Shown piece by piece: positions 18,066-28,620 of a DNA stretch of 64,000 nucleotides. The stretch is from the NCBI RefSeq assembly GCF_900119385.1, contig NZ_FPKO01000008.1:248001-312000 (forward strand). Direction: 5' to 3'. Below the pieces are notes generated by a model. It did not search any database. It was given only the letters and a program-made list of their open reading frames with translations, and was not told the DNA's origin. The position numbers and the translations under genes are program-made. The number at the start of each line of letters is the position of its first letter. The first letter of the stretch is position 1. The stretch comes from Thermophilibacter mediterraneus (lineage in GTDB: Bacteria; Actinomycetota; Coriobacteriia; Coriobacteriales; Atopobiaceae).

Positions 18066-19078
18066 CCCTCTTCCTTGCCGTAGGTGATGCGCGGGTCGAG
18101 GTAGGCGTAGATGACGTCCACCACGAGGTTGATGACGATGAAGATCACGCCGATGAGCAGGACGGCGCCCTGGACCACCGGGTAGTCGGACTTGAGGATG
18201 CAGTCGACCACGTACTTGCCGATGCCGGGCCAGGCGAAGACCGTCTCGGTGAGCATGGCGCCGCCGAGGAGGCTCCCCAGCTGCAGGCCGATGACCGTGG
18301 TCACGGGCAGCATGGCGTTGCGCAGGGCGTGGTGCTTGTTGACGCGGCCGCGCTTGAGGCCCTTGGCGCGGGCCGTGCGCACGTAGTCCTCGTTGAGGGT
18401 CTCGAGCATGCTCGAGCGGGTCATGCGGGTGATGACCGCCATCGAGTACATGGAGAGCGCGAGCGCCGGCAGGATGATGTGCGAGAGCGCGTCGGCGAAG
18501 GCCTCGAGGTCACCCGAGAACAACGTGTCGATGAGGTAGAGCCCCGTCCCGCCCACCGGCTGGAGCAGCGGGTCGATGCGCCCGGAGCTCGGCAGCACGT
18601 GGAGCACGCCGGCGAACAGGATGATGAGAAGGACGCCGAGCCAGAAGATCGGCATCGAGACGCCCACGAGCGCGAGGATCGTGGCGAGGCCGTCGATCGG
18701 CGAGTTCTTGTGGGTGGCGGACACCACGCCGAGGGCGACGCCCACCACGCCGGCGATGACGATGGCGACGAGCGCGAGCTCGACGGTGGCCGGGAAGCGC
18801 GAGAGCAGCTCCTGCGCCACGGGGGCGTGCGTGTAGTAGCTCTCGCCGAGGTCGCCGGTGAGCGCGCCGGTGAGGAAGTTGAAGTACTGGATGACGATGG
18901 GGTCGTTGAGGCCGTTCTCCTGGCGCCAGGCCTCCATGGCCTCGGCCGTCGCGTGCTGGCCGAGGACGACGGGCGCCGGGTCGGCAGAGAACACGCGCAT
19001 GATCAGAAAGACGATGATCGAGACGCCAAGCAGCACGGGAATTGCCATCAGGATGCGCTTGAGCACGTACTTGAGCAC
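18062..19078 (-). CDS. oppB: Oligopeptide ABC transporter permease OppB-like
   Basis: A 338-residue permease starting MLKYVLKRILMAIPVLLGVSIIVFLIMR, the classic OppB/DppB first membrane helix. The EAA loop TRSSMLETLNEDYVRTARAKGLKRGRV lies near residue 220, and the C-terminus carries the last helix. A hairpin in the 111-bp gap to oppA suggests the binding protein is made in excess of the membrane components. Confidence 0.94.
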   Translation of the reverse strand: MLKYVLKRILMAIPVLLGVSIIVFLIMRVFSADPAPVVLGQHATAEAMEAWRQENGLNDPIVIQYFNFLTGALTGDLGESYYTHAPVAQELLSRFPATVELALVAIVIAGVVGVALGVVSATHKNSPIDGLATILALVGVSMPIFWLGVLLIILFAGVLHVLPSSGRIDPLLQPVGGTGLYLIDTLFSGDLEAFADALSHIILPALALSMYSMAVITRMTRSSMLETLNEDYVRTARAKGLKRGRVNKHHALRNAMLPVTTVIGLQLGSLLGGAMLTETVFAWPGIGKYVVDCILKSDYPVVQGAVLLIGVIFIVINLVVDVIYAYLDPRITYGKEEG

Positions 19079-19124
19079 GCTTTCCCCCTTTCCTGCGCAG
19101 GGCGGGACGAACGGAACATAATGG

Positions 19125-19155
19125 GGGAACGGGCCAGCGACGCCGACCCGTTCCC
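19125..19155 (-). terminator. Intercistronic hairpin between oppA and oppB
   Basis: GGGAACGGG (19125-19133) and CCCGTTCCC (19147-19155) form a 9-bp stem with a 13-base loop just past the oppA stop codon. There is no U run, so partial termination or 3'-end protection of the oppA mRNA is more likely than full termination. Confidence 0.5.
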
Positions 19156-19189
19156 TGACGGTCAGACCATCAAGAGCGCGCCCTTGTCG

Positions 19190-20815
19190 CTAGGCGCTCT
19201 TGGTGACGCCCTGCAGGTGCACGACGCCCGTGGGGTGATAGTAGAAGCCCTGGACGTTGGGGTTGTAGCCCGCGAGGTTCTTGGCGTGGGAGATGACCAT
19301 CCACGGCATCTGCTCGGCGACCATCTGCTCGCACTGGAGGTAGATGTTGTCGCGCTCCTCGCCCTCCTCGGTGGCAAGGCCCTGCTGGATGAGCGCCTTG
19401 TACTCGTCGTTGCTGTAGCGGCCGACGTTCATGGAGACGTTCTCGTCGGCGAGGAGGTTCATGAAGTTGTCCGGGTCGCCGTTGTCGCCCACCCAGCCGT
19501 ACAGGCAGCAGTCGAAGGAGTCGGTCTCGACCTTGGTCTGGTAGGTCGTCCAGTCGAACTGGGAGATGTTGACGGTGACGCCGACCTCCTGCAGGTAGCC
19601 CTGGATGGCCTCGGCGAGCGCGGTGCCGCCGATGGAGTTGTACGGGCGCACGTTGGAGTAGGTGTAGAGGGAGACCTCGGTGATGCCGAGCTCCTCGAAG
19701 GCGGCGCGGGCCGCCTCGGGGTCGTAGGCGGTCTGGGTGACGGCCTCGTCGTAGGGCGCCATCCACAGCGGCATGACGGAGGTCGCGACGCCGGCGTAGT
19801 CGCCGTAGAGGCTCTGGACCATCTCCTCGACGTTGACGGCCTGGCAGAACGCGCGACGGGCCTCGACGCTGGTGAACTGGCCGGAGTCGTTGCGGAACGC
19901 CAAGTAGTTGATGTTCATGCCGTCCTCCTCGAAGAGGGAGTAGCCGGCATCGGTGATGGTGGGCACCACGGAGGCGTCAATGCCGTCGATGATGTCGACC
20001 TCGCCGTTGGTGAGGGCGGTCACGCGGCTGGAGTTCTCGGCGATGAAGCGGAAGATGATGTTCTTGGTCTGGGGCATGTTCTCGGAGTCCCAGTAGTCCT
20101 CGTTGGCCTCAAGGACGACGTTCTGGCCCTTCTCCCACGAGACGAACTTGTAGGGGCCGGAGCCGATGGGGTTCTCGATGGAGTTGGCGCCGTCCTCGTA
20201 GGCGGAAGGGGCGACGACCGGCGCGGCGAGGGCCATGGCCATGTTCTTGATGAAGGCGGTGGAGGCGGAGCGCAGCGTGATGACGAGCGTGGTGTCGTCG
20301 GTGGCCTCGACAGAGGCGACGCCGCTGTTGGAGTCCTCGGCGCCGAAGACGAAGGAGGCGTAGGGCATGTCGGCCGTGCGGTTGGGCTCGAGCTGGCGCT
20401 CGATGTTCTTCTTCACGGCCTCGGCGTTGCAGTCGGTGCCGTCGTGGAACTTGACGCCCTCGTGCAGCTTGAAGGTGTAGGTGAGGCCGTCGTCGGAGAT
20501 CTCGGGCATCTCGGCGAGGCCGGCGACGACGTCGCAGGTCTCGGTGTCGTAGGCGAGCAGCGTGTCGTAGATGTTGCACATGATCTTCGCGGACTCGCCG
20601 TCGTCGACGTAGGCGGGGTCGAGGCCGCGCGGGTCGGCGCCCTGGGCGAAGGTGATGGTGTCGGCGGTGCCGCTCTCGGAGCTGCCGGAGGCGTCGTCGC
20701 CGCCGGCCTCGCTGGCGCGCTGGCTGTTGCAGCCCGCGAGCGCGAAGACGCTGGTCGCGGAGACCGCGCCCATCGCCTGGACGAAGCGGCGCCTTGAGAT
20801 GTCTGCCATGGTCAT
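19190..20815 (-). CDS. oppA: Oligopeptide-binding lipoprotein (SBP family 5)
   Basis: A 541-residue extracellular solute-binding protein. The N-terminus MTMADISRRRFVQAMGAVSATSVFALAGC combines a twin-arginine SRRRF motif with a lipobox LAGC (Cys about 29), so it is probably a Tat-exported lipoprotein anchored to the membrane. A Gly/Ser-rich linker follows, then family 5 features such as GLTYTFKLHEGVKFHDG. It is the first gene of the opp operon. The start has GGAGGGAG upstream. The substrate is inferred to be peptides, from the associated OppDF type. Confidence 0.92.
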   Translation of the reverse strand: MTMADISRRRFVQAMGAVSATSVFALAGCNSQRASEAGGDDASGSSESGTADTITFAQGADPRGLDPAYVDDGESAKIMCNIYDTLLAYDTETCDVVAGLAEMPEISDDGLTYTFKLHEGVKFHDGTDCNAEAVKKNIERQLEPNRTADMPYASFVFGAEDSNSGVASVEATDDTTLVITLRSASTAFIKNMAMALAAPVVAPSAYEDGANSIENPIGSGPYKFVSWEKGQNVVLEANEDYWDSENMPQTKNIIFRFIAENSSRVTALTNGEVDIIDGIDASVVPTITDAGYSLFEEDGMNINYLAFRNDSGQFTSVEARRAFCQAVNVEEMVQSLYGDYAGVATSVMPLWMAPYDEAVTQTAYDPEAARAAFEELGITEVSLYTYSNVRPYNSIGGTALAEAIQGYLQEVGVTVNISQFDWTTYQTKVETDSFDCCLYGWVGDNGDPDNFMNLLADENVSMNVGRYSNDEYKALIQQGLATEEGEERDNIYLQCEQMVAEQMPWMVISHAKNLAGYNPNVQGFYYHPTGVVHLQGVTKSA

Positions 20816-21152
20816 GGTGTTCTCCCTCCCGTGGGGTCAATGCACGAGCTACTGTAGCCCCGGGGAGCGGACGAACGTCACAAAAGAAACAAAAGTGCGC
20901 CAAGCGGAAACCCCGCGGCTTTGAAGCTGAAACAGCGCTGGAACATTGCGGCCGGGGCGGGGACGGCTGCGGGGCGGTCTCTTTTACACAATTCCGGGCC
21001 CACGAGACCTCTCTACATCTCGTATGCCCTCTTTTGCTTACAAAAAAAAATAGCTAGAGAATTATAGAGGTATTCTGACAGCGTAGGGGTCCGCTGCGGC
21101 GCGGAACGCCCGCCGTCCGCGCGCGGCACGCCCGCCGTCCGCGGCGCGGCAC
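20816..21152. other. oppA upstream region
   Basis: About 340 non-coding bases. On the minus strand a TATAAT box lies at 21061-21066 with no clear -35 box, and a run of nine T follows at about 21042-21051. This is the most AT-rich spot in the left half of the window. A leader of about 240 nt would result if this is the oppA promoter; no known riboswitch was recognised. Confidence 0.35.
21061..21066 (-). promoter_or_regulatory. Candidate oppA -10 box
   Basis: TATAAT on the minus strand in an AT-rich island, upstream of the opp operon and downstream of the rpmB terminator. No matching -35 hexamer. Confidence 0.35.
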
Positions 21153-21180
21153 AAAAAAGAGGAGGCCGCTCGGGCCTCCC
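21153..21180 (-). terminator. rpmB terminator
   Basis: Minus strand GGGAGGCC and GGCCTCC hairpin followed by TTTTTT, 24 bases after the rpmB stop. It is the clearest canonical intrinsic terminator in the window. Confidence 0.85.
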
Positions 21181-21203
21181 CCATGGGTGCGATTGAGCTT
21201 TTG

Positions 21204-21392
21204 CTAGCTGCGGGCGATCTTGCCGGACTTGAGGCAGCGGGAGCACACGTTGGCCTTGCGGCGGTGCCCGTCGACCACAACGGTGACGCGCTGGATATTG
21301 GGCTTGAACGTGCGGTTGACCACACGGTGGGAGTGGCTGATGGAATGACCGGCAACGGCGTGCTTGCCGCAGAACTCACAAACCTTGGACAT
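21204..21392 (-). CDS. rpmB: 50S ribosomal protein L28
   Basis: A 62-residue L28 starting MSKVCEFCGKHAVAGHSISHSHRVVNRTFKPN. Two CxxC pairs (CEFC and CSRC) mark the zinc-binding form. The ATG at 21392 has GAGGAGG five bases upstream. It is monocistronic, with a TTGCAG/TATAGT promoter at 21453-21480 and a strong terminator. Confidence 0.97.
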   Translation of the reverse strand: MSKVCEFCGKHAVAGHSISHSHRVVNRTFKPNIQRVTVVVDGHRRKANVCSRCLKSGKIARS

Positions 21393-21452
21393 GACTCGTA
21401 CCTCCTCGGGGGCGCGGCGCTCTTTCGCGCCCGCATCTTTCACAGCTCGCCA

Positions 21453-21480
21453 ACTATAGCACACGCGGCAACGCCTGCAA
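21453..21480 (-). promoter_or_regulatory. rpmB promoter
   Basis: Minus strand -35 TTGCAG (21475-21480) and -10 TATAGT (21453-21458) with a 16-bp spacer, about 60 bp upstream of the rpmB start. Confidence 0.65.
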
Positions 21481-21494
21481 GCCAGAACCCTCCC

Positions 21495-21549
21495 CAAACC
21501 CCCAAGAATTGTGGCGTTTCTGTTGTGCGTCGCCACCTGTTGGGGTTTG
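21495..21549 (-). terminator. Hairpin downstream of the HAD-ThiN fusion gene
   Basis: CAAACCCC(CA) at 21495-21504 pairs with TGGGGTTTG at 21541-21549, with an inner GTGGCG/CGCCAC stem, 29 bases past the stop codon. It is a likely terminator, although without a U run. Confidence 0.55.
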
Positions 21550-21577
21550 CGGAGTCGCCGCCCAGGGCCGCCACGCG

Positions 21578-22927
21578 CTACGCGCGCAGCAGGAACGCGG
21601 CGACGGCGCCGGAGCGGCAGGTGACCTCGGCATCGCCGCCCTCGATCACGTTGGACACGCCGAGGTCGCCGAGCAGCTCCATCGGGTGGTCGCTCAGCTC
21701 CCACCGCATGCCGCGCTCGTCGATCCGGGTCCCGGGGGCGAGCGCGATCGCGGAGAACGTCCGGCCGGCCGCGCGCTCCCCCAGCCGCCAGCTGCGCTCG
21801 CCGCCCGACGCGAGCACCCTCATCTCGTAGCCGTCCTCGACGACGCGCGCCGTCGCCCCGGACTCGGCGCACGACGCCAGCTGCCCCACGACGGCCAGCG
21901 CGTGGTCGGGCCGGCCGCCCGAGGCGCACGTGAGCGTGAGCGCCAGGGGCGCGCGGCGCCGCGACGCCTCGTGCCGGGCGCAGTCGAGCGCGAGCGAAAG
22001 GTCGGTCGCGTACTTCTCGGAGGGGAAGCCCACGCAGGTCGCCGCGGCCGCGCGGGCCCAGTCGGCCGCGGCGGACGTCGCCGAGTCGCAGTCCCCGCAG
22101 AAGACGTCGGGCACGACCCCCGCCGCGCGGCAGGCGTCGGCGCCGCCGTCGGCGCACACCACGTAGTCCGCCGCGTCCGCGAGCTCGCGGACGAGCGCCG
22201 GGGAGCTCGGGTCGGGCGATCCGGCGACCACGAGCGCGCGCAGCGGGGCGCCCTCGGCGGCGGCCGGGCGCTCGTAGTCGCGCAGCAGCGCGAGGGAGAG
22301 CTCGCCGAAGCCGTGGACGAAGACGTCGCAGTGCGGGCGCACGTCCTCCTCGCGGCGCCCGTCGTGGTCGTTCATGAGGCCGACCACGGCAAAGCCGGCG
22401 CGGCGCGACGTCCGCACGCCGAACGGGGCGTCCTCGAAGACCCAGGTCGTCTCGCGCGGGGTCCCCAGGCGGCGCGCGGCCTCGAGGTAGACGTCGGGGA
22501 ACTCCTTGTCGCGCCCGCCGACGTCCTCGGTGCTCACGACGTCGGAGAAGTAGCGCGCGAGGTCGTGGACCTCGAGCGCGAACCGCAGCTCGCGCAGGGG
22601 CGTCGACGAGGCCACGACCATGGGGACGCCCGCCGCCGAGAGCTCGTCGAGGAAGTCACGGGCGCCGGGCATGAGGGCCACCTCGCGCTCGTAGGCGTCG
22701 CGGACGTGCGCGCAGACCTCCTCGTAGAGCTCGCCCGGGCTCGCCGGGATGCCGAGCTCGTCGTGGAAGAAGTCGCAGGTGTCGCGCAGCGAGAGCGACT
22801 CGAGCCGCTCCATCGGGACGCCCTCCACGCCGTAGCGCCCGCAGAGCCAGTCGTAGGCGTGCGTCCACATGCCCATCGAGTCGACGAGCGTGCCGTCGCA
22901 GTCAAAGATCGCGCCCGAAACTTCCAT
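21578..22927 (-). CDS. HAD phosphatase / thiamine pyrophosphokinase fusion protein
   Basis: A 449-residue two-domain protein. Residues 1-215 are a beta-phosphoglucomutase-like HAD hydrolase: FDCDGTLVDS nucleophile motif at 8-17, SST motif II, and FEDAPFGV for the acidic motif. Residues about 229-449 are a ThiN-type thiamine pyrophosphokinase with DGGADACRAAGVVPDVFCGDCDSAT, EKYATDLSLALD and ASGGRPDHAL, the three conserved blocks of the family. ThiN uses ATP to convert thiamine to thiamine diphosphate. The HAD substrate is unknown; thiamine monophosphate is an attractive guess. The ATG at 22927 follows GGGGGAG. It is divergent from the FmdB gene. Confidence 0.88.
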   Translation of the reverse strand: MEVSGAIFDCDGTLVDSMGMWTHAYDWLCGRYGVEGVPMERLESLSLRDTCDFFHDELGIPASPGELYEEVCAHVRDAYEREVALMPGARDFLDELSAAGVPMVVASSTPLRELRFALEVHDLARYFSDVVSTEDVGGRDKEFPDVYLEAARRLGTPRETTWVFEDAPFGVRTSRRAGFAVVGLMNDHDGRREEDVRPHCDVFVHGFGELSLALLRDYERPAAAEGAPLRALVVAGSPDPSSPALVRELADAADYVVCADGGADACRAAGVVPDVFCGDCDSATSAAADWARAAAATCVGFPSEKYATDLSLALDCARHEASRRRAPLALTLTCASGGRPDHALAVVGQLASCAESGATARVVEDGYEMRVLASGGERSWRLGERAAGRTFSAIALAPGTRIDERGMRWELSDHPMELLGDLGVSNVIEGGDAEVTCRSGAVAAFLLRA

Positions 22928-23093
22928 CGCTCCCCCATCGTCCTTCTCGCCCGCTCGCGCCGCGGTGGCGCGCAGATATGATGATATACGCGCCCGGCGA
23001 GAAAAACCTCGCGCTCGCCGACGCGCACGTTGGGTAAAGTATCCTGCGGCTGATCGAAAGCTTCACGTTTTTCTCGCGTTATTCGGAGGGACC

Positions 23094-23324
23094 ATGGCAC
23101 GTTACGACTATCACTGCCCCGACTGCGGCGTCACCTTTGAGGTCGAGCACCCCATGAGCGCGCATCCCACCGTCAGCTGCCCGAGCTGCGGGCACGTCGC
23201 GGAGCGCGTCTTCGACCCGTCGGGCATCGTCTTCAAGGGGTCGGGGTTCTACAACACCGACCAGCGCGGCAAGGGCGCGGCGCCCAAGAGCGAGAAGTGC
23301 GAGAGCTGCGGCGCCTGCGACTAG
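23094..23324 (+). CDS. FmdB-family zinc ribbon protein
   Basis: A 76-residue putative regulatory protein of the FmdB family. It starts MARYDYHCPDCGVTFEVEHPM and has CxxC pairs at CPDC, CPSC and a C-terminal CESCGAC, so one zinc ribbon plus a second Cys cluster. The conserved PSGIVFKGSGFYNTD segment is present. The ATG at 23094 follows CGGAGGG. Function of the family is poorly known. Confidence 0.9.
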   Translation: MARYDYHCPDCGVTFEVEHPMSAHPTVSCPSCGHVAERVFDPSGIVFKGSGFYNTDQRGKGAAPKSEKCESCGACD

Positions 23325-23354
23325 CCTCGCGCGGAAAACAGCGTCTCGACCACG

Positions 23355-23384
23355 GAGGGGCGGCCACGAAGGCCGCCCCTCTTT
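23355..23384 (+). terminator. FmdB gene terminator
   Basis: GAGGGGCGGCC (23355-23365) and GGCCGCCCCTC (23371-23381) form an 11-bp perfect stem followed by TTT, 31 bases after the stop codon. Confidence 0.8.
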
Positions 23385-23435
23385 CGCTGCGTCGAGTCGC
23401 TCGGGCGCGTGGCCGGCGGGCCGGGTGCGCGGGCC

Positions 23436-24839
23436 CTACCGATAGGTCACGACCTTCGTCCCGTAGGGGATGTTGTCGTAGATCCACTTCGCCTGGTCGA
23501 TGGGCAGGCGGACGCAGCCGTGCGAGAGGTTCAGCCCGAGCCGCCCGTCGAGGACGTCGAACGTGTTCTGGTAGTACTCGACGGAGTGGATCAGGTAGTC
23601 GCCGTAGAACTGCGTGTAGTAGTAGCAGGTGTACGCCGGCAGGGACAGGGCGCCGTTGAACGAGTAGCCCTTGCCCGTAACCGTGTACTCGCCGAGGACG
23701 GTGGGCGACGAGGGGGCGCCGGTCGTGCACAGCCAGTAGCTCCTGAGGTTCCAGCCTCCCCTCCCGCCCGAGAAGATTCCCAGGTAGTTGTTGGTGGTGT
23801 CAACCATGATGAGCCAGCTGGTGGAGCTGGCGCAGCCCTGCGCCCTGGACATCATGGCGCCCAGGCCGGGGGTCTCGTTGAGCGAGCCGTCCTCGTTGAA
23901 GAGGTAGGGCGTCCCGTCGATGGTGCGCAGCCCGGTCGCCATGGCGCCGGACGTCGGGTCGAGGTAGTAGGTGCTGCCCCCGTCCTCGAACCACCCGTCG
24001 CGGCGCAGCTCGCCCGTTCCGGGGTCGAAGTAGTACCGGAAGTCCATGAGCTGCGACCATCCCCCGACGGGGGCGCCGTCCGAGCCGAGCAGGTAGTACG
24101 TCCCGTCGATGAGCGAGAGGCCCGTGTCGAGCCGGCCCCTGGCGTCGAAGTGCAGGCGGGCGCCGCCCACGCTCGCCCAGCCGGTCGCGTACGTGCCGTC
24201 CCCGTAGCCAAAGAACCGATCCGACCCCACCTCAGCCCAGCCCGAGAAGCCGTCGGCCGGCGCCTCGGACCTGGTGTCGAGCGCGTACCAGGCGACCCCC
24301 TCGTGCCGCCACCCGTGGGAGACGAGGTTGAGGTTCTCCTCGACGCTCAGCGTGAAGTTGTGCGTGCCCGTCGCGGCGTTGGGGTTGTACTGGCGCAGGA
24401 GCGGGGCGCCCTGCTCGCGGTCGGAGTACCATCCGACGCCCTCGTAGCTCCATCCCGCCGCCACGAGCGCGTCGCGCTCGTCCGCGCTCGTGGTGTAGTG
24501 GTGGTCCCCGCCGACGACGTGGGAGTTGTAGAGGCGGTAGACCGGGTCGCCCGTCGAGGGGGCCGTCCAGCCCACGCCCTCGGAGCGCCAGCCGACGAGG
24601 CAGAGCGAGTCGTGCTCGTCGGGGCTCTGGGTGTAGAAGTGCTCCCCGGTGGAGGGGTTGTAGAGCCGGTAGACGCTGATGCCCGCCGGGGCGTCGGACG
24701 TCGCGGCGGGGGTCGCGGATGGCGTCGCGGGGGGCGTTGCGGCGGGCGCGTCCCCCGCGGGCGTCGCCCCCGCCCGCGCCGGGCAGAGGGCGAGCGCGAC
24801 GACGACCAGCGCGGCAAGTAGTCCTTCTCGAGCCTTCAT
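23436..24839 (-). CDS. Secreted L,D-transpeptidase with DUF5648-like and wall-binding repeats
   Basis: A 467-residue secreted protein. A signal peptide (1-24, ending ARAGA) and a Pro/Ala/Thr linker are followed by three DUF5648-like repeats (YRLYNPSTGEHFYT, YRLYNSHVVGGDHHYT, LRQYNPNAATGTHNFT; about 55-190) and choline-binding-like Trp/Tyr repeats (about 197-330). The C-terminal YkuD domain contains DYLIHSVEY and the catalytic SHGCVRL (Cys about 442). YkuD enzymes form 3-3 peptidoglycan crosslinks or attach proteins to the wall. The start at 24839 has AAAGG rather far upstream. Confidence 0.9.
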   Translation of the reverse strand: MKAREGLLAALVVVALALCPARAGATPAGDAPAATPPATPSATPAATSDAPAGISVYRLYNPSTGEHFYTQSPDEHDSLCLVGWRSEGVGWTAPSTGDPVYRLYNSHVVGGDHHYTTSADERDALVAAGWSYEGVGWYSDREQGAPLLRQYNPNAATGTHNFTLSVEENLNLVSHGWRHEGVAWYALDTRSEAPADGFSGWAEVGSDRFFGYGDGTYATGWASVGGARLHFDARGRLDTGLSLIDGTYYLLGSDGAPVGGWSQLMDFRYYFDPGTGELRRDGWFEDGGSTYYLDPTSGAMATGLRTIDGTPYLFNEDGSLNETPGLGAMMSRAQGCASSTSWLIMVDTTNNYLGIFSGGRGGWNLRSYWLCTTGAPSSPTVLGEYTVTGKGYSFNGALSLPAYTCYYYTQFYGDYLIHSVEYYQNTFDVLDGRLGLNLSHGCVRLPIDQAKWIYDNIPYGTKVVTYR

Positions 24840-24952
24840 GATTCAGCACCGCCTTTCGGGCTGGGCGCAGCTTGCCTGTGAAGGTACCACTCCGCGGGGA
24901 CAGACGCGCCGTAGCGGGGCCCGGACGAGCGCTATGCGGCGGCGCGCGGCGG

Positions 24953-25115
24953 CGCGGGCCCCAACGCCGAGGCCTCCGCGGGCCCCAACGGCGCGGACCC
25001 CCTCCGCGGGTCCCAACGCCGAGGCCTCCACGGGCCCCAACGCCGAGGCCTCCGCGGGCCCCAACGCCGAGGCCTCCGCGGGCCCCAACGCCGAGGCCTC
25101 CGCGGGCCCCAACGC
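24953..25115. repeat. Tandem 24-bp repeats (about seven copies)
   Basis: The unit GCGGGCCCCAACGCCGAGGC + CTCC is repeated head to tail, some copies being degenerate. Being a multiple of three, it reads as an octapeptide (AGPNAEAS on the plus strand). The last copy runs directly into palindromic element copy 1. Confidence 0.85.
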
Positions 25116-25180
25116 CGAAACGGAGCGTCTGACGAAAAACGCCCCGAAAATCGGCCGTTTTTCGCAAATCGCTCCGTTTG
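25116..25180. repeat. Palindromic repeat element, copy 1
   Basis: Starts CGAAACGGAGCGTCTGACGA and ends CGCTCCGTTT. It is nearly the exact reverse complement of copy 2 (26576-26642), so the two flank the AbiEi-like gene in inverted orientation. Confidence 0.85.
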
Positions 25181-25455
25181 GGCGCGGGCGCGCGAGCCCG
25201 GGCCGGCGAGTGCGCGTGTCGGCGAGTCCGCGAGTCCGCGCCCAAGAGCGCGGCCCCGGCCACGCTGCGCTCGGCCCGACCTACGGCGCCGCTCGCCGAG
25301 AAAGCCGCCGCGCGATCCGGGCGCGCGACCCCTGCGACCTGCGCGCGAAGGCAGCTGGAAGCCGGCTGTCAGACAACGCCGGAAGATCGACGCTACGCTC
25401 TCCCCCAAAACGGAGCGGAACCGCAGCAGCGCCGCGAACATCGGAGGGAGCCCTC

Positions 25456-26511
25456 ATGAGCGCTCGCGTAGAGAAGGACGTTTGCCGGCACCTCGACGCG
25501 GCAGAGCGCAGCTGTCGCTGCCTCGTGCCCGGGGACGACGAGCTCAGGCGCGCGCTGCGATACCGCAGGCAATGGGTCGTCGAGCCGATCGCCGGGCTGT
25601 TCGTCCGTCGGGAGACCTGGCGCGCGCTCAATCCGGCCGAGCGCACGATGTGGCTCATGCGGGCGCTCGGAGAGACCCATCCCACGTGGCGGTTCTGCGG
25701 GGCGTCGGCCGCCGTGGCATACGGCCTCCCCGTCACATGGGGGCTTCTCACGCACGTGTTCGTGCTCGGCCCGTCAGGCTCGCGGAAGAAGGGGGTCAGC
25801 GGCGTCTGGCGCAGGAGCATCAGCGACGGCGACGTGACGAGCGTGGGCGGACTGCGCCTCACCCCGCTCTGGCGCACCGTCTTCGACTGCCTCGCGACGA
25901 TGCCGCCCGCGGACGCGCTGGCCGTCGCCGACCGGGCCGCGCGGCTGAGCGGGTCGTCCGCGCGGCAGGTCTGCGAGTACGTGCGCACCGCCCACCGCGG
26001 GCGCCGCGGTGTCCGGCGGGCGCTTGGGACGGCGGCGCTCGTGGACGGGCGCGCGGAGAGCGGCGGCGAGTCCATCGCGCGCCACACGATGCATGAGCTG
26101 GGCTTCGTCGAGCCGGAGCTGCAGGTGTGGATCAAGGACCCCGTCGAGCCGAAAAAGTGGTTCCGCGTGGACTTCCTCTGGGTGCTGCCCGACGGGAGCA
26201 TCGTCATCGGGGAGCTCGACGGACGCCAGAAGTCAGAGAGGCCGGAGCTCATGGGCGGGCGCAGCGCGATCCGCGTGATGCAGGACGAGCGGCTGCGCGA
26301 GTCGCACCTCACCGCGCTGCACCCGGCAATCGTGCGGTTTGACTACGACACGGCGCGCGACCCAGAGCGGCTCGGGGCGCTGCTCGAGCGCTACGGGGTG
26401 CCCAAGCGCACCCGCGAGCCGTCGCTGCCGCGCGCCACGCGCACGATCCGCGCGGAGCTCGTGCTCTCCGACGGGCAGTGGACGCTCGTAACCGAGGAGG
26501 TGCTGGCGTAG
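25456..26511 (+). CDS. AbiEi-like winged-helix protein with DUF559-like nuclease domain
   Basis: The 351-residue protein has an N-terminal region resembling AbiEi-type antitoxin/transcription-factor proteins (WVVEPIAGLFVRRETW, then WRFCGASAAVAYGLP). The C-terminal region has the RVDFLWVLPDGSIVIGELDGRQKS motif (about 240-262), i.e. D...ExDGxxK of the PD-(D/E)XK/DUF559 type. No AbiEii toxin partner is adjacent, so a toxin-antitoxin role is uncertain; Coriobacteriia and other actinobacteria carry many such orphans. The ATG at 25456 follows GGAGGG. It is bounded by inverted copies of the palindromic element. Confidence 0.65.
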   Translation: MSARVEKDVCRHLDAAERSCRCLVPGDDELRRALRYRRQWVVEPIAGLFVRRETWRALNPAERTMWLMRALGETHPTWRFCGASAAVAYGLPVTWGLLTHVFVLGPSGSRKKGVSGVWRRSISDGDVTSVGGLRLTPLWRTVFDCLATMPPADALAVADRAARLSGSSARQVCEYVRTAHRGRRGVRRALGTAALVDGRAESGGESIARHTMHELGFVEPELQVWIKDPVEPKKWFRVDFLWVLPDGSIVIGELDGRQKSERPELMGGRSAIRVMQDERLRESHLTALHPAIVRFDYDTARDPERLGALLERYGVPKRTREPSLPRATRTIRAELVLSDGQWTLVTEEVLA

Positions 26512-26575
26512 TCGCTCCTCTCGCCGCGGTGACGCGCGGCCCCCGCGGCCGGGCGCCGACGCCGCGGTGCCACGT

Positions 26576-26642
26576 CGAAACGGAGCGATTTGCGAAAATC
26601 GGCCGTTTTTCGGGGCGTTTTTCGTCAGACGCTCCGTTTCGG
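26576..26642. repeat. Palindromic repeat element, copy 2
   Basis: Starts CGAAACGGAGCGATTTGCGA and ends GACGCTCCGTTTCGG. It lies between the convergent AbiEi-like gene and ABC exporter gene, where it may also serve as a two-way terminator. Confidence 0.88.
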
Positions 26643-26727
26643 CGTGGGGAGGGGCGGCCGCGCCGGGCGCGGCCCGGCCGCGGGCGAGAAGGACCTCGCG
26701 CCGCGGCCCGGCGAGCCCCCGCGCCCG

Positions 26728-28620
26728 CTACGCGAACTGGCTGCGGTAGAGCTCGGCGTAGGCGCCGCCCGCGGCGAGGAGCTGCTCGTGCGTGCCCTGC
26801 TCGATGATCGTGCCCTTCTCCATCACGAGGATGAGGTCGGCGTCGACGATCGTGGAGAGGCGGTGCGCGATCACGAAGCTCGTGCGGTTCTCCATGATGG
26901 CCTCCATCGCCCGAACGATCGCCTGCTCGGTGCGGGTGTCCACGCTCGAGGTCGCCTCGTCGAGGATGAGGATCGCGGGGTCGGTGAGCATGGCCCGCGC
27001 GATGGTGAGCAGCTGGCGCTGGCCCTGGGAGATGTTCTCCGCGTCGTTGGACAGCATCGTGTCGTAGCCGTGCGGCAGCGTGCGCACGAAGAAGTCGACG
27101 TGCGCGGCGCGCGCGGCGGCCTCGACCTCCTCGCGGGTGGCCCCGGACTTGCCGTAGGCGATGTTGTCGGCGATGGTGCCCTCGAAGAGCCACGCGTCCT
27201 GCAGCACCATGCCGAACTGGCGGCGCAGGCCGGAGCGCGTGAGCTCGCGGGTGTCCACGCCGTCGAGCGTGACGCGCCCGCCGTCGACCTCGTAGAAGCG
27301 CATGAGCAGGTTGATGAGGGTGGTCTTGCCGGCACCCGTGGCGCCGACGATGGCGACCTTCTGCCCCGGCTCGGCCACGAGGGAGACGTCGCGCATGAGC
27401 GGGCGGTCGGGGGCGTAGCCAAAGCGCACGTGCTCGAACGCGACGCGGCCCTCGACGGGGTCGGGAAGCGCGGCGGGGCGCTCGGGGTCGGGCACGACCT
27501 CGCCCTCGTCGAGCAGGGCGAAGACGCGCTCCGCCGCGGCGAGCGCGCCCTGGAGCATGTTCACCGTGAGCGAGAGCTGCGTGAGCGGCTCGGACGCCTG
27601 CATCACGTACTGGAAGAACGCCTGGAACACGCCGACGGAGATCTGCCCCATGACGAGCATGCCCCCGGCGAGCAGGCCGACCGTCACCTGGCACAGCCTC
27701 ATGAGCAGACGGATGGCCGGGGCGATGGCGTTGGTGACGAAGTCGGCGCTCGCGGAGGTTTCGGCCAGGCGCTCGGCGGCCTCGGCGATGTCGGCCTCGC
27801 TCGCCTCCTCGCAGCCGAAGGCCTTGATGACCGCGCGGCCGCTGTACGCCTCCTCGACGCGGCCGGTCAGCGTGCCGAGCGCCTCCTGCCTCGCCGCCGC
27901 GACCTTGAGCGTGTAGGACGTCACGAGCTTGGTCACCACGCCGGCCACCAGCGCAAACGCGACGAAGATCGCGGTGAGCGCGAGGTCGTAGGTGGACATG
28001 AGGATGATCGCGCCGCCGACCATGGCAAACGCCATCAGGAGCTGGAGCAGGCCGCGCTGCAGCACCTCGGAGATCTTGTCGAGGTCGTTGGTGGCGCGGC
28101 TGATGGTGTCGCCCGGCTGGTGCGCGTCGTAGTAGGACAGGGGCAGGCGCGCGAGCTTGTCGGCGATCTGGGAGCGCAGACGCAGGTTCAGGCGCTCGGC
28201 GAAGCTCGCCATGACGAGCCCCTGCACGGTGTAGGCCGCCCATGCGGACGTCCAGATGCCGAGGAACGTGAGGATCTCGATGCCGGCGTTGTCGAGCGAG
28301 ACCACGAAGGGCTCCCCGGCGGCGAAGCTCGCCTGGATGTTCGCCCAGAGGTGGTCAATGAGGCCGGCGCTGTAGGCGGTCGCCCCGAGGCTGCCCGCCA
28401 CGTAGGCGACCGAGCAGACCGCCGCGACCACGAGCCTCCAGCGCTGTCCGGAGGCGGCGGACCACAGGCGCGCGGCGGTGCCGAGCGCGTCGGACGGGAC
28501 GTCGAGCTCCTCGTCGGGCGCGGGCTCGGGGGCGCCGGGGCGCGCGTCGCCGTCGGCGTCGTCGCGGGCGCGCTCGAGGCGCTCCAGCTCGTCGAGCTCG
28601 AGGTTCTTCTCGCTAGGCAT
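26728..28620 (-). CDS. ABC exporter half-transporter, subunit with intact catalytic site
   Basis: A 630-residue type IV ABC exporter half: six membrane helices (about 65-370) followed by an ATPase domain with Walker A GATGAGKTT (about 415), an unusual signature ISQGQ, Walker B ILILDEATSSVD with the catalytic Glu, and H-loop AHR. The N-terminal 45 residues are acidic and unusual. The ATG overlaps the stop of the partner gene by eight bases. With the 607-residue partner it forms a heterodimeric exporter; the substrate is unknown, and drug or peptide export is plausible given the MarR gene. Confidence 0.92.
   Translation of the reverse strand: MPSEKNLELDELERLERARDDADGDARPGAPEPAPDEELDVPSDALGTAARLWSAASGQRWRLVVAAVCSVAYVAGSLGATAYSAGLIDHLWANIQASFAAGEPFVVSLDNAGIEILTFLGIWTSAWAAYTVQGLVMASFAERLNLRLRSQIADKLARLPLSYYDAHQPGDTISRATNDLDKISEVLQRGLLQLLMAFAMVGGAIILMSTYDLALTAIFVAFALVAGVVTKLVTSYTLKVAAARQEALGTLTGRVEEAYSGRAVIKAFGCEEASEADIAEAAERLAETSASADFVTNAIAPAIRLLMRLCQVTVGLLAGGMLVMGQISVGVFQAFFQYVMQASEPLTQLSLTVNMLQGALAAAERVFALLDEGEVVPDPERPAALPDPVEGRVAFEHVRFGYAPDRPLMRDVSLVAEPGQKVAIVGATGAGKTTLINLLMRFYEVDGGRVTLDGVDTRELTRSGLRRQFGMVLQDAWLFEGTIADNIAYGKSGATREEVEAAARAAHVDFFVRTLPHGYDTMLSNDAENISQGQRQLLTIARAMLTDPAILILDEATSSVDTRTEQAIVRAMEAIMENRTSFVIAHRLSTIVDADLILVMEKGTIIEQGTHEQLLAAGGAYAELYRSQFA

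Follow-up and report, generated by a model that had tools for sequence, protein, structure and literature searches.

A conserved fusion of a HAD phosphatase and a thiamine pyrophosphokinase in Coriobacteriia: a candidate thiamine monophosphate phosphatase

Introduction

What is the role of a HAD phosphatase joined in one chain to a thiamine pyrophosphokinase (TPK, ThiN)? The question is raised by a gene of Thermophilibacter mediterraneus, found in the 64,000-nucleotide stretch of DNA analysed here (contig NZ_FPKO01000008.1, positions 248,001 to 312,000; hereafter the window). ThiN requires free thiamine. Plants reportedly use a route, attributed to Mimura in 2016, in which the thiamine monophosphate (TMP) phosphatase TH2 and a TPK lead from TMP to thiamine and on to thiamine pyrophosphate (TPP), thus replacing ThiL. 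The fusion would likewise offer two steps from TMP in place of ThiL; the plant TH2 and TPK are said to be separate proteins, whereas here there is one chain. In bacteria, HAD TMP phosphatases of Anaerotruncus, Dorea and Syntrophomonas have reportedly been assayed. Hasnain and colleagues reportedly described, in 2016, HAD-IA and HAD-IB enzymes that dephosphorylate thiamin monophosphate and whose genes form fusions or clusters with thiamin genes.

The bacterial HAD-IA TMP phosphatases described in PMC5627462 are fused to genes such as thiD or thiE or lie in one operon with them, and HAD-IA and HAD-IB thiamin hydrolases are among the functions found through fusions in PMC4921024. The present protein is similar to the HAD TMP phosphatases in print in that it attaches a HAD-IA domain to an enzyme of the thiamin pathway in bacteria lacking ThiL. 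It differs from the fusions named in PMC5627462 (partner thiD or thiE) since its partner is the pyrophosphokinase ThiN. According to PMC2766623, Staphylococcus aureus has ThiE and TPK but lacks ThiL, and at that time there was no report of a specific TMP phosphatase. A search of the literature, supplements not covered, found no HAD-ThiN fusion in Coriobacteriia, although its absence from print is not claimed.

Architecture of the fusion protein

The gene occupies window positions 21578..22927 on the minus strand, with its ATG at 22927 and its stop codon at 21578-21580, and encodes 449 residues. The initial annotation had placed it correctly and left the strand unstated. GGGGGAG, a Shine-Dalgarno-like element read from the sequence, lies just 5' of the ATG (22930..22936, minus strand). 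Residues 1-215 (22283..22927) form a HAD subfamily IA phosphatase domain: Pfam HAD_2 matches residues 7-183 with 78.1 bits (cut-off 23.8), the NCBIfam HAD-IA model TIGR01509 gives 51 bits (cut-off 29.4), and Foldseek and VIA-align matches extend over about residues 1-217. A linker (residues 216-228; 22244..22282), located near the stop and start codons of split relatives, leads to the ThiN domain at residues 229-449 (21581..22243). Pfam places TPK_catalytic at residues 247-358 (75 bits, cut-off 30.7) and TPK_B1_binding at residues 387-441 (31 bits, cut-off 22), and the NCBIfam model for thiamine diphosphokinase, TIGR01378, is matched with 105.6 bits against a curated equivalog cut-off of 76.4. 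By score, the C-terminal half is a family member of ThiN, with a predicted role in the pyrophosphorylation of thiamine.

Four elements of the HAD half, which we take to be HAD motifs I, II, III and IV, are D9-x-D11-G-T (22889..22903), Ser107 (22607..22609), Lys141 (22505..22507) and Glu165-Asp166 (22430..22435). In an alignment of 54 sequences, motif I is intact in 53, which are all those that cover it; Ser107 is Ser or Thr in 54/54; and Lys141 and Glu165-Asp166 are invariant throughout. Within the GDCDS motif of ThiN (residues 278-282; 22082..22096), G278, D279 and D281 are also invariant in 54/54. The claim that the motifs of both enzymes are complete in one 449-residue chain agrees with Pfam, NCBIfam and this alignment.

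An AlphaFold2 model, for which 25 fused sequences were aligned, has a mean pLDDT of 90.4 and a pTM of 0.72, with a dip to pLDDT 74-75 at residues 211-230. Its Foldseek matches include HDHD1 (9m7l, 3l5k) and YniC (1te2) as well as TPKs, 3lm8 being one of them, and the HAD half aligns with 1te2_A with a Z of 27.1 and an rmsd of 2.3 over 214 residues (VIA-align). The motifs, the TIGR01509 score and the fold all place this half in HAD-IA. The ThiN half shares fold and family with the TPKs of Bacillus subtilis (3lm8) and Bacteroides (2omk), whose chains of 222 and 231 residues have no HAD half. Among solved structures, the HADs closest in sequence are HDHD1 (pseudouridine-5'-phosphatase), TM_1254 and 2-deoxyglucose-6-P phosphatase (1te2); no known TMP phosphatase is among them, which counts against TMP as the substrate.

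Distribution and history of the fusion

The full-length fusion was matched across 119 Coriobacteriia genomes. It is present and free of stops in 13 of these, including the source genome, and all 13 belong to one family, f1. This family is taken as Atopobiaceae, because Thermophilibacter, Olsenella and Atopobiaceae MAGs supply the closest named loci; two further families, f2 and f3, are probably Eggerthellaceae and Coriobacteriaceae. Among 54 loci holding both halves (a set that pools two collections and counts some genomes twice), 42 have them fused and 12 have them as adjoining genes, with -4 to 59 bp between HAD and ThiN. Since full-length matches are carried by 13/119 genomes and 42/54 loci, the fusion is neither a sequencing artefact nor a product of chance; it is real and conserved. 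A sample of 296 Actinomycetota genomes, which includes at least 26 Coriobacteriia, gave no full-length fused match outside f1 among the matches listed.

The family f1 has 20 genomes: 13 with the fusion, four with an adjacent pair (G002, G060, G086 and G098), and three in which ThiN has no adjoining HAD (G092, G096 and G104). In f3, HAD adjoins ThiN in 16 of 18 genomes, the exceptions being G050 and G064. Six f3 genomes have HAD and ThiN in one frame interrupted by TAG, and G116, also of f3, has them in one frame with one stop. HAD is thus linked to ThiN, by fusion or as its immediate neighbour, in 33 of the 38 f1 and f3 genomes, which is the fusion or clustering with a thiamin gene expected of a TMP phosphatase (ThMPase). 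Elsewhere in the class, frames of about 450-480 aa around ThiN looked like other fusions. Six such loci were read, and in three the long frame overlaps a ThiT-like gene in another frame, so there is no fusion. At L119-L124 (five in f5, one in f11), thiN has a ThiT-like importer gene (by eye) upstream and no HAD.

In a tree of 68 HADs, those of f1, those of f3 and an f2/Clostridia clade form an unresolved three-way fork. The Clostridia HADs (30-34% identity, 22 loci) have no ThiN match in the DNA examined, and no thiamin gene was recognised by eye at these loci. The ThiN-linked HAD of G060 groups with the unlinked HAD of G104, outside the main clades (100/98, both on long branches); judging by its sequence, the HAD beside ThiN in G060 is another HAD lineage. 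When mapped on a tree of the 37 linked HADs, fusion requires four changes (four in the bootstrap range), two of which are forced by starred branches. The fused state has therefore been gained or lost more than once.

Gene neighbourhood

The next gene downstream of the fusion is rpmB, encoding ribosomal protein L28 (21204..21392, minus strand; Pfam Ribosomal_L28). A terminator-like hairpin with a T run lies 3' of rpmB (21158..21182, minus strand), a weak signal, since the region has two such elements and shuffled sequence has 1.3 on average. On the other side is a divergent zinc-ribbon (FmdB-type) gene (23094..23324, plus strand; Pfam Zn_ribbon_8).

Neighbours were compared at 32 linked loci, 16 from f1 and 16 from f3, with flanks of 0.2 to 5 kb. 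The zinc-ribbon gene is upstream of the pair at 16/16 f1 loci and 0/16 f3 loci, while an APH-type kinase is near the pair at 11/16 f3 loci and 0/16 f1 loci. The pair thus outlives some of its neighbours. On the other hand, rpmB is near the pair, on either strand, at 15/16 f1 loci (2/16 in f3, close only in G116), and its persistence means that linkage in f1 could partly be plain gene-order conservation.

These observations bear on the reading of the HAD half as a general sugar- or nucleotide-phosphate phosphatase, acting for example on pseudouridine-5'-phosphate or hexose phosphates, whose link to ThiN is historical. The best sequence and fold matches are indeed other HAD-IA phosphatases, and rpmB stays nearby in f1 just as the HAD does. 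However, the pair persists in two families as other neighbours change, the fused state has been altered several times, and a second HAD lineage also adjoins ThiN in G060, so that we consider a general phosphatase unlikely.

Among the APH-type kinases of f3 are those at L136 9140-9967 and L137 6324-7211, with the others at nine further loci. One of these kinases, when scanned, gave 32 bits to the thiamine kinase ThiK, for which the cut-off is 299.45.

No over-cut-off ThiL in a class where ThiE is widespread

The initial annotation had proposed that the fusion could replace ThiL and had suggested a search for thiL as a check. Thiamine-gene profiles were run across 67 genomes of the class, and ThiL over the family cut-off is absent from the source genome and from 67/67 Coriobacteriia genomes; no functional thiL was thus found to speak against the proposal. 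Some TIGR01379 matches, at 77-110 bits, suggested a divergent ThiL. The two weak matches of the source genome score as SelD (363.9 bits) and PurM (372.1 bits), those at L125-L128 in other genomes read by eye as HypE, and L129, the fifth region examined, has no readable product.

ThiE is present in 34 of the 67 genomes: 25 are over the cut-off, and those below it are eight full-length matches at 132-139 bits and one in two pieces (G094). By family, it is found in 6/20 f1, 14/15 f2, 13/18 f3 and 1/14 other genomes. Where ThiL is missing while ThiE is present, TMP should need a phosphatase ahead of ThiN. This situation is encountered in three of the five same-genus relatives (G033, G084 and G088), which have ThiE and the fusion but no ThiL. 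In all three, both ThiE and ThiD are over the cut-off, and in G088 one region holds thiC (by eye) along with thiE and thiD. For such relatives the proposal is supported by the absence of over-cut-off ThiL (0/67) and the linkage of HAD to ThiN (33/38). The N-terminal HAD-IA domain would hydrolyse TMP to thiamine, the C-terminal ThiN domain would pyrophosphorylate thiamine with ATP to TPP, and the fusion would in this way supply the missing last two steps.

The f2 genomes point in both directions. In each of the 14 ThiE-positive members the best HAD match is at 9.3e-21 or lower, while G102, the sole member without ThiE, has none better than 1.8e-9; this co-occurrence fits a TMP phosphatase role, although it reflects one loss only. 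In 5/5 f2 loci, however, the related HAD lies beside genes read as unrelated to thiamin, which counts against TMP. There are also counter-examples: G092 and G096 have ThiE and ThiN with no HAD adjoining ThiN, their nearest HADs sitting in a general paralogue clade, and G065, which also has ThiE, lacks a close HAD (2.0e-9).

Thiamine auxotrophy and import in the source genome

For the source genome itself the proposal does not hold. The suggested thiE search did not find ThiE, its single match being one of 18.8 bits to a KDPG-aldolase-like protein (by eye). ThiM had no match, and ThiD had none over the cut-off, with weak kin only (75 bits against 204.95). Lacking ThiE, ThiM and an over-cut-off ThiD, the organism is a salvage-only thiamine auxotroph, and resembles the variant designated 'A' in PMC6593275 (Table 1). 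With no ThiE there is no ThiE-made TMP, so replacing ThiL is not the job of the fusion there: ThiL is absent, but so is the ThiE that would make TMP, and the fusion of this genome is therefore not filed under the ThiL-bypass route.

The sole TPP-riboswitch match of the source genome precedes genes for an ABC permease, an NMT1/THI5-type binding protein and an ATPase-like protein. A survey of TPP riboswitches took 30 loci, one per genome, from 46 matches listed, some of them under the gathering score. Twelve of the 30, each from a ThiE-positive genome, have thiC (the query was picked out by eye in G088). Fourteen have an ABC permease of the source type, all in genomes without ThiE (G000, G002, G015, G042, G048, G056, G060, G062, G068, G082, G104, G110, G114 and G118), and four have neither (G018, G027, G086 and G076). 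In G000, the NMT1-type binding protein of the riboswitch operon is encoded at C1:1138227-1139360. PMC6593275 counts ThiXYZ2 among thiamine importers. ThiT (PF09515) is over the cut-off in only 2 of the 38 f1 and f3 genomes, and this rarity is a hint about the importer, not proof.

One of these genomes, G114, has kept the fusion together with remnants of thiM and thiD (141 and 127 aa, respectively) at L179 4063-4850, and has no match for thiE. The remnants lie behind a TPP-riboswitch match of 53.4, against a gathering score of 54.3, and the thiamin operon seems to be in decay. With the fusion retained, thiM and thiD broken and thiE not found, it seems that a fused lineage lost TMP synthesis recently.

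Selection on the HAD half and its probable role

If the HAD half served de novo synthesis only, its decay would be expected in auxotrophs. Linkage of HAD to ThiN shows no association with ThiE in f1 and f3, occurring in 16/19 ThiE-positive and 17/19 ThiE-negative genomes; that linkage does not track ThiE favours a general phosphatase. Among six same-genus genomes, pairwise dN/dS is 0.185-0.58 for the HAD half and 0.198-0.339 for the ThiN half. The ratio of HAD dN to ThiN dN is 0.99 in three pairs without ThiE, 1.16 in nine mixed pairs and 1.48 in three pairs with ThiE, by NG86, a simple method, and with pairs that are not independent. In these six genomes dN/dS gives no sign of relaxed selection on the HAD half where ThiE is absent; the HAD half is under purifying selection in auxotrophs. 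It is hardly conceivable, then, that this half is inactive and only structural: such a reading found no supporting evidence, and both these dN/dS values and the motifs, intact in the 54 sequences wherever covered, speak against it.

Selection without ThiE also agrees with damage control, in which the HAD half would dephosphorylate damaged or unwanted (e.g., oxidised) thiamine phosphates and so spare TPP enzymes. Tnr3 is a fungal Nudix-TPK fusion whose Nudix half plays such a part, with damaged thiamin diphosphate as its substrate. The two are alike in that a TPK is fused to a phosphate-removing domain, and unlike in that this domain is HAD here and Nudix there. A further point in favour is that Table 4 of PMC4921024 (Henry 2016) includes the Tnr3/Nudix thiamin pyrophosphatase. 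Nothing specific indicates a damaged substrate, however, and ThiE without ThiL presents a simpler need for a TMP phosphatase; we regard damage control as quite improbable.

Most likely, as far as sequence can tell, the fusion combines a TMP phosphatase with a TPK. That it is bifunctional in this sense, and would serve synthesis in some relatives and salvage in the source genome, is the account we favour with some confidence. In the auxotrophic source genome, salvaged thiamine, together with TMP that is imported or arises from TPP breakdown, would be converted to TPP. Three points are inferred: that the HAD half acts on TMP, where the TMP of this genome comes from, and any handing-over between the domains. 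The substrate in particular calls for care, as phosphoethanolamine later proved to be the favoured substrate of Arabidopsis ThMPase1 in planta (PMC9911876). It is tempting to speculate further that in auxotrophic Atopobiaceae the fusion is a vitamer-salvage hub, a former biosynthetic enzyme turned to salvage, whose HAD half makes usable the TMP that the NMT1-type ABC importer linked to the TPP riboswitch would bring in besides thiamine; this more specific proposal is tentative.

The protein resembles known HAD TMP phosphatase fusions; what was unexpected is that its phosphatase half is selected for where ThiE no longer makes TMP. If the favoured account holds, it assigns a TMP phosphatase to many gut members of the Atopobiaceae and Coriobacteriaceae (Olsenella- and Collinsella-type), and offers a case of a biosynthetic fusion still under selection after pathway loss. 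Because of the requirement of ThiN for free thiamine, it would also call for caution wherever a vitamin B1 reconstruction gives 'ThiL/ThiN' as a single step. An example is Table 1 of PMC6593275.

Other features of the nearby DNA

No Rfam family matched window positions 19000-27000. Beyond the zinc-ribbon gene, an L,D-transpeptidase (YkuD) gene with choline-binding repeats and a DUF5648 domain occupies positions 23436-24839 on the minus strand. A 24-bp tandem repeat (24953-25118; 6.8 copies, 89% matches) runs into an inverted-repeat stretch. A 104-nt stretch is present in two inverted copies that are 84% complementary (25091-25194 and 26563-26666). Each copy contains a hairpin-forming inverted repeat of 35-42 nt, and the two perhaps belong to an interspersed repeat family.
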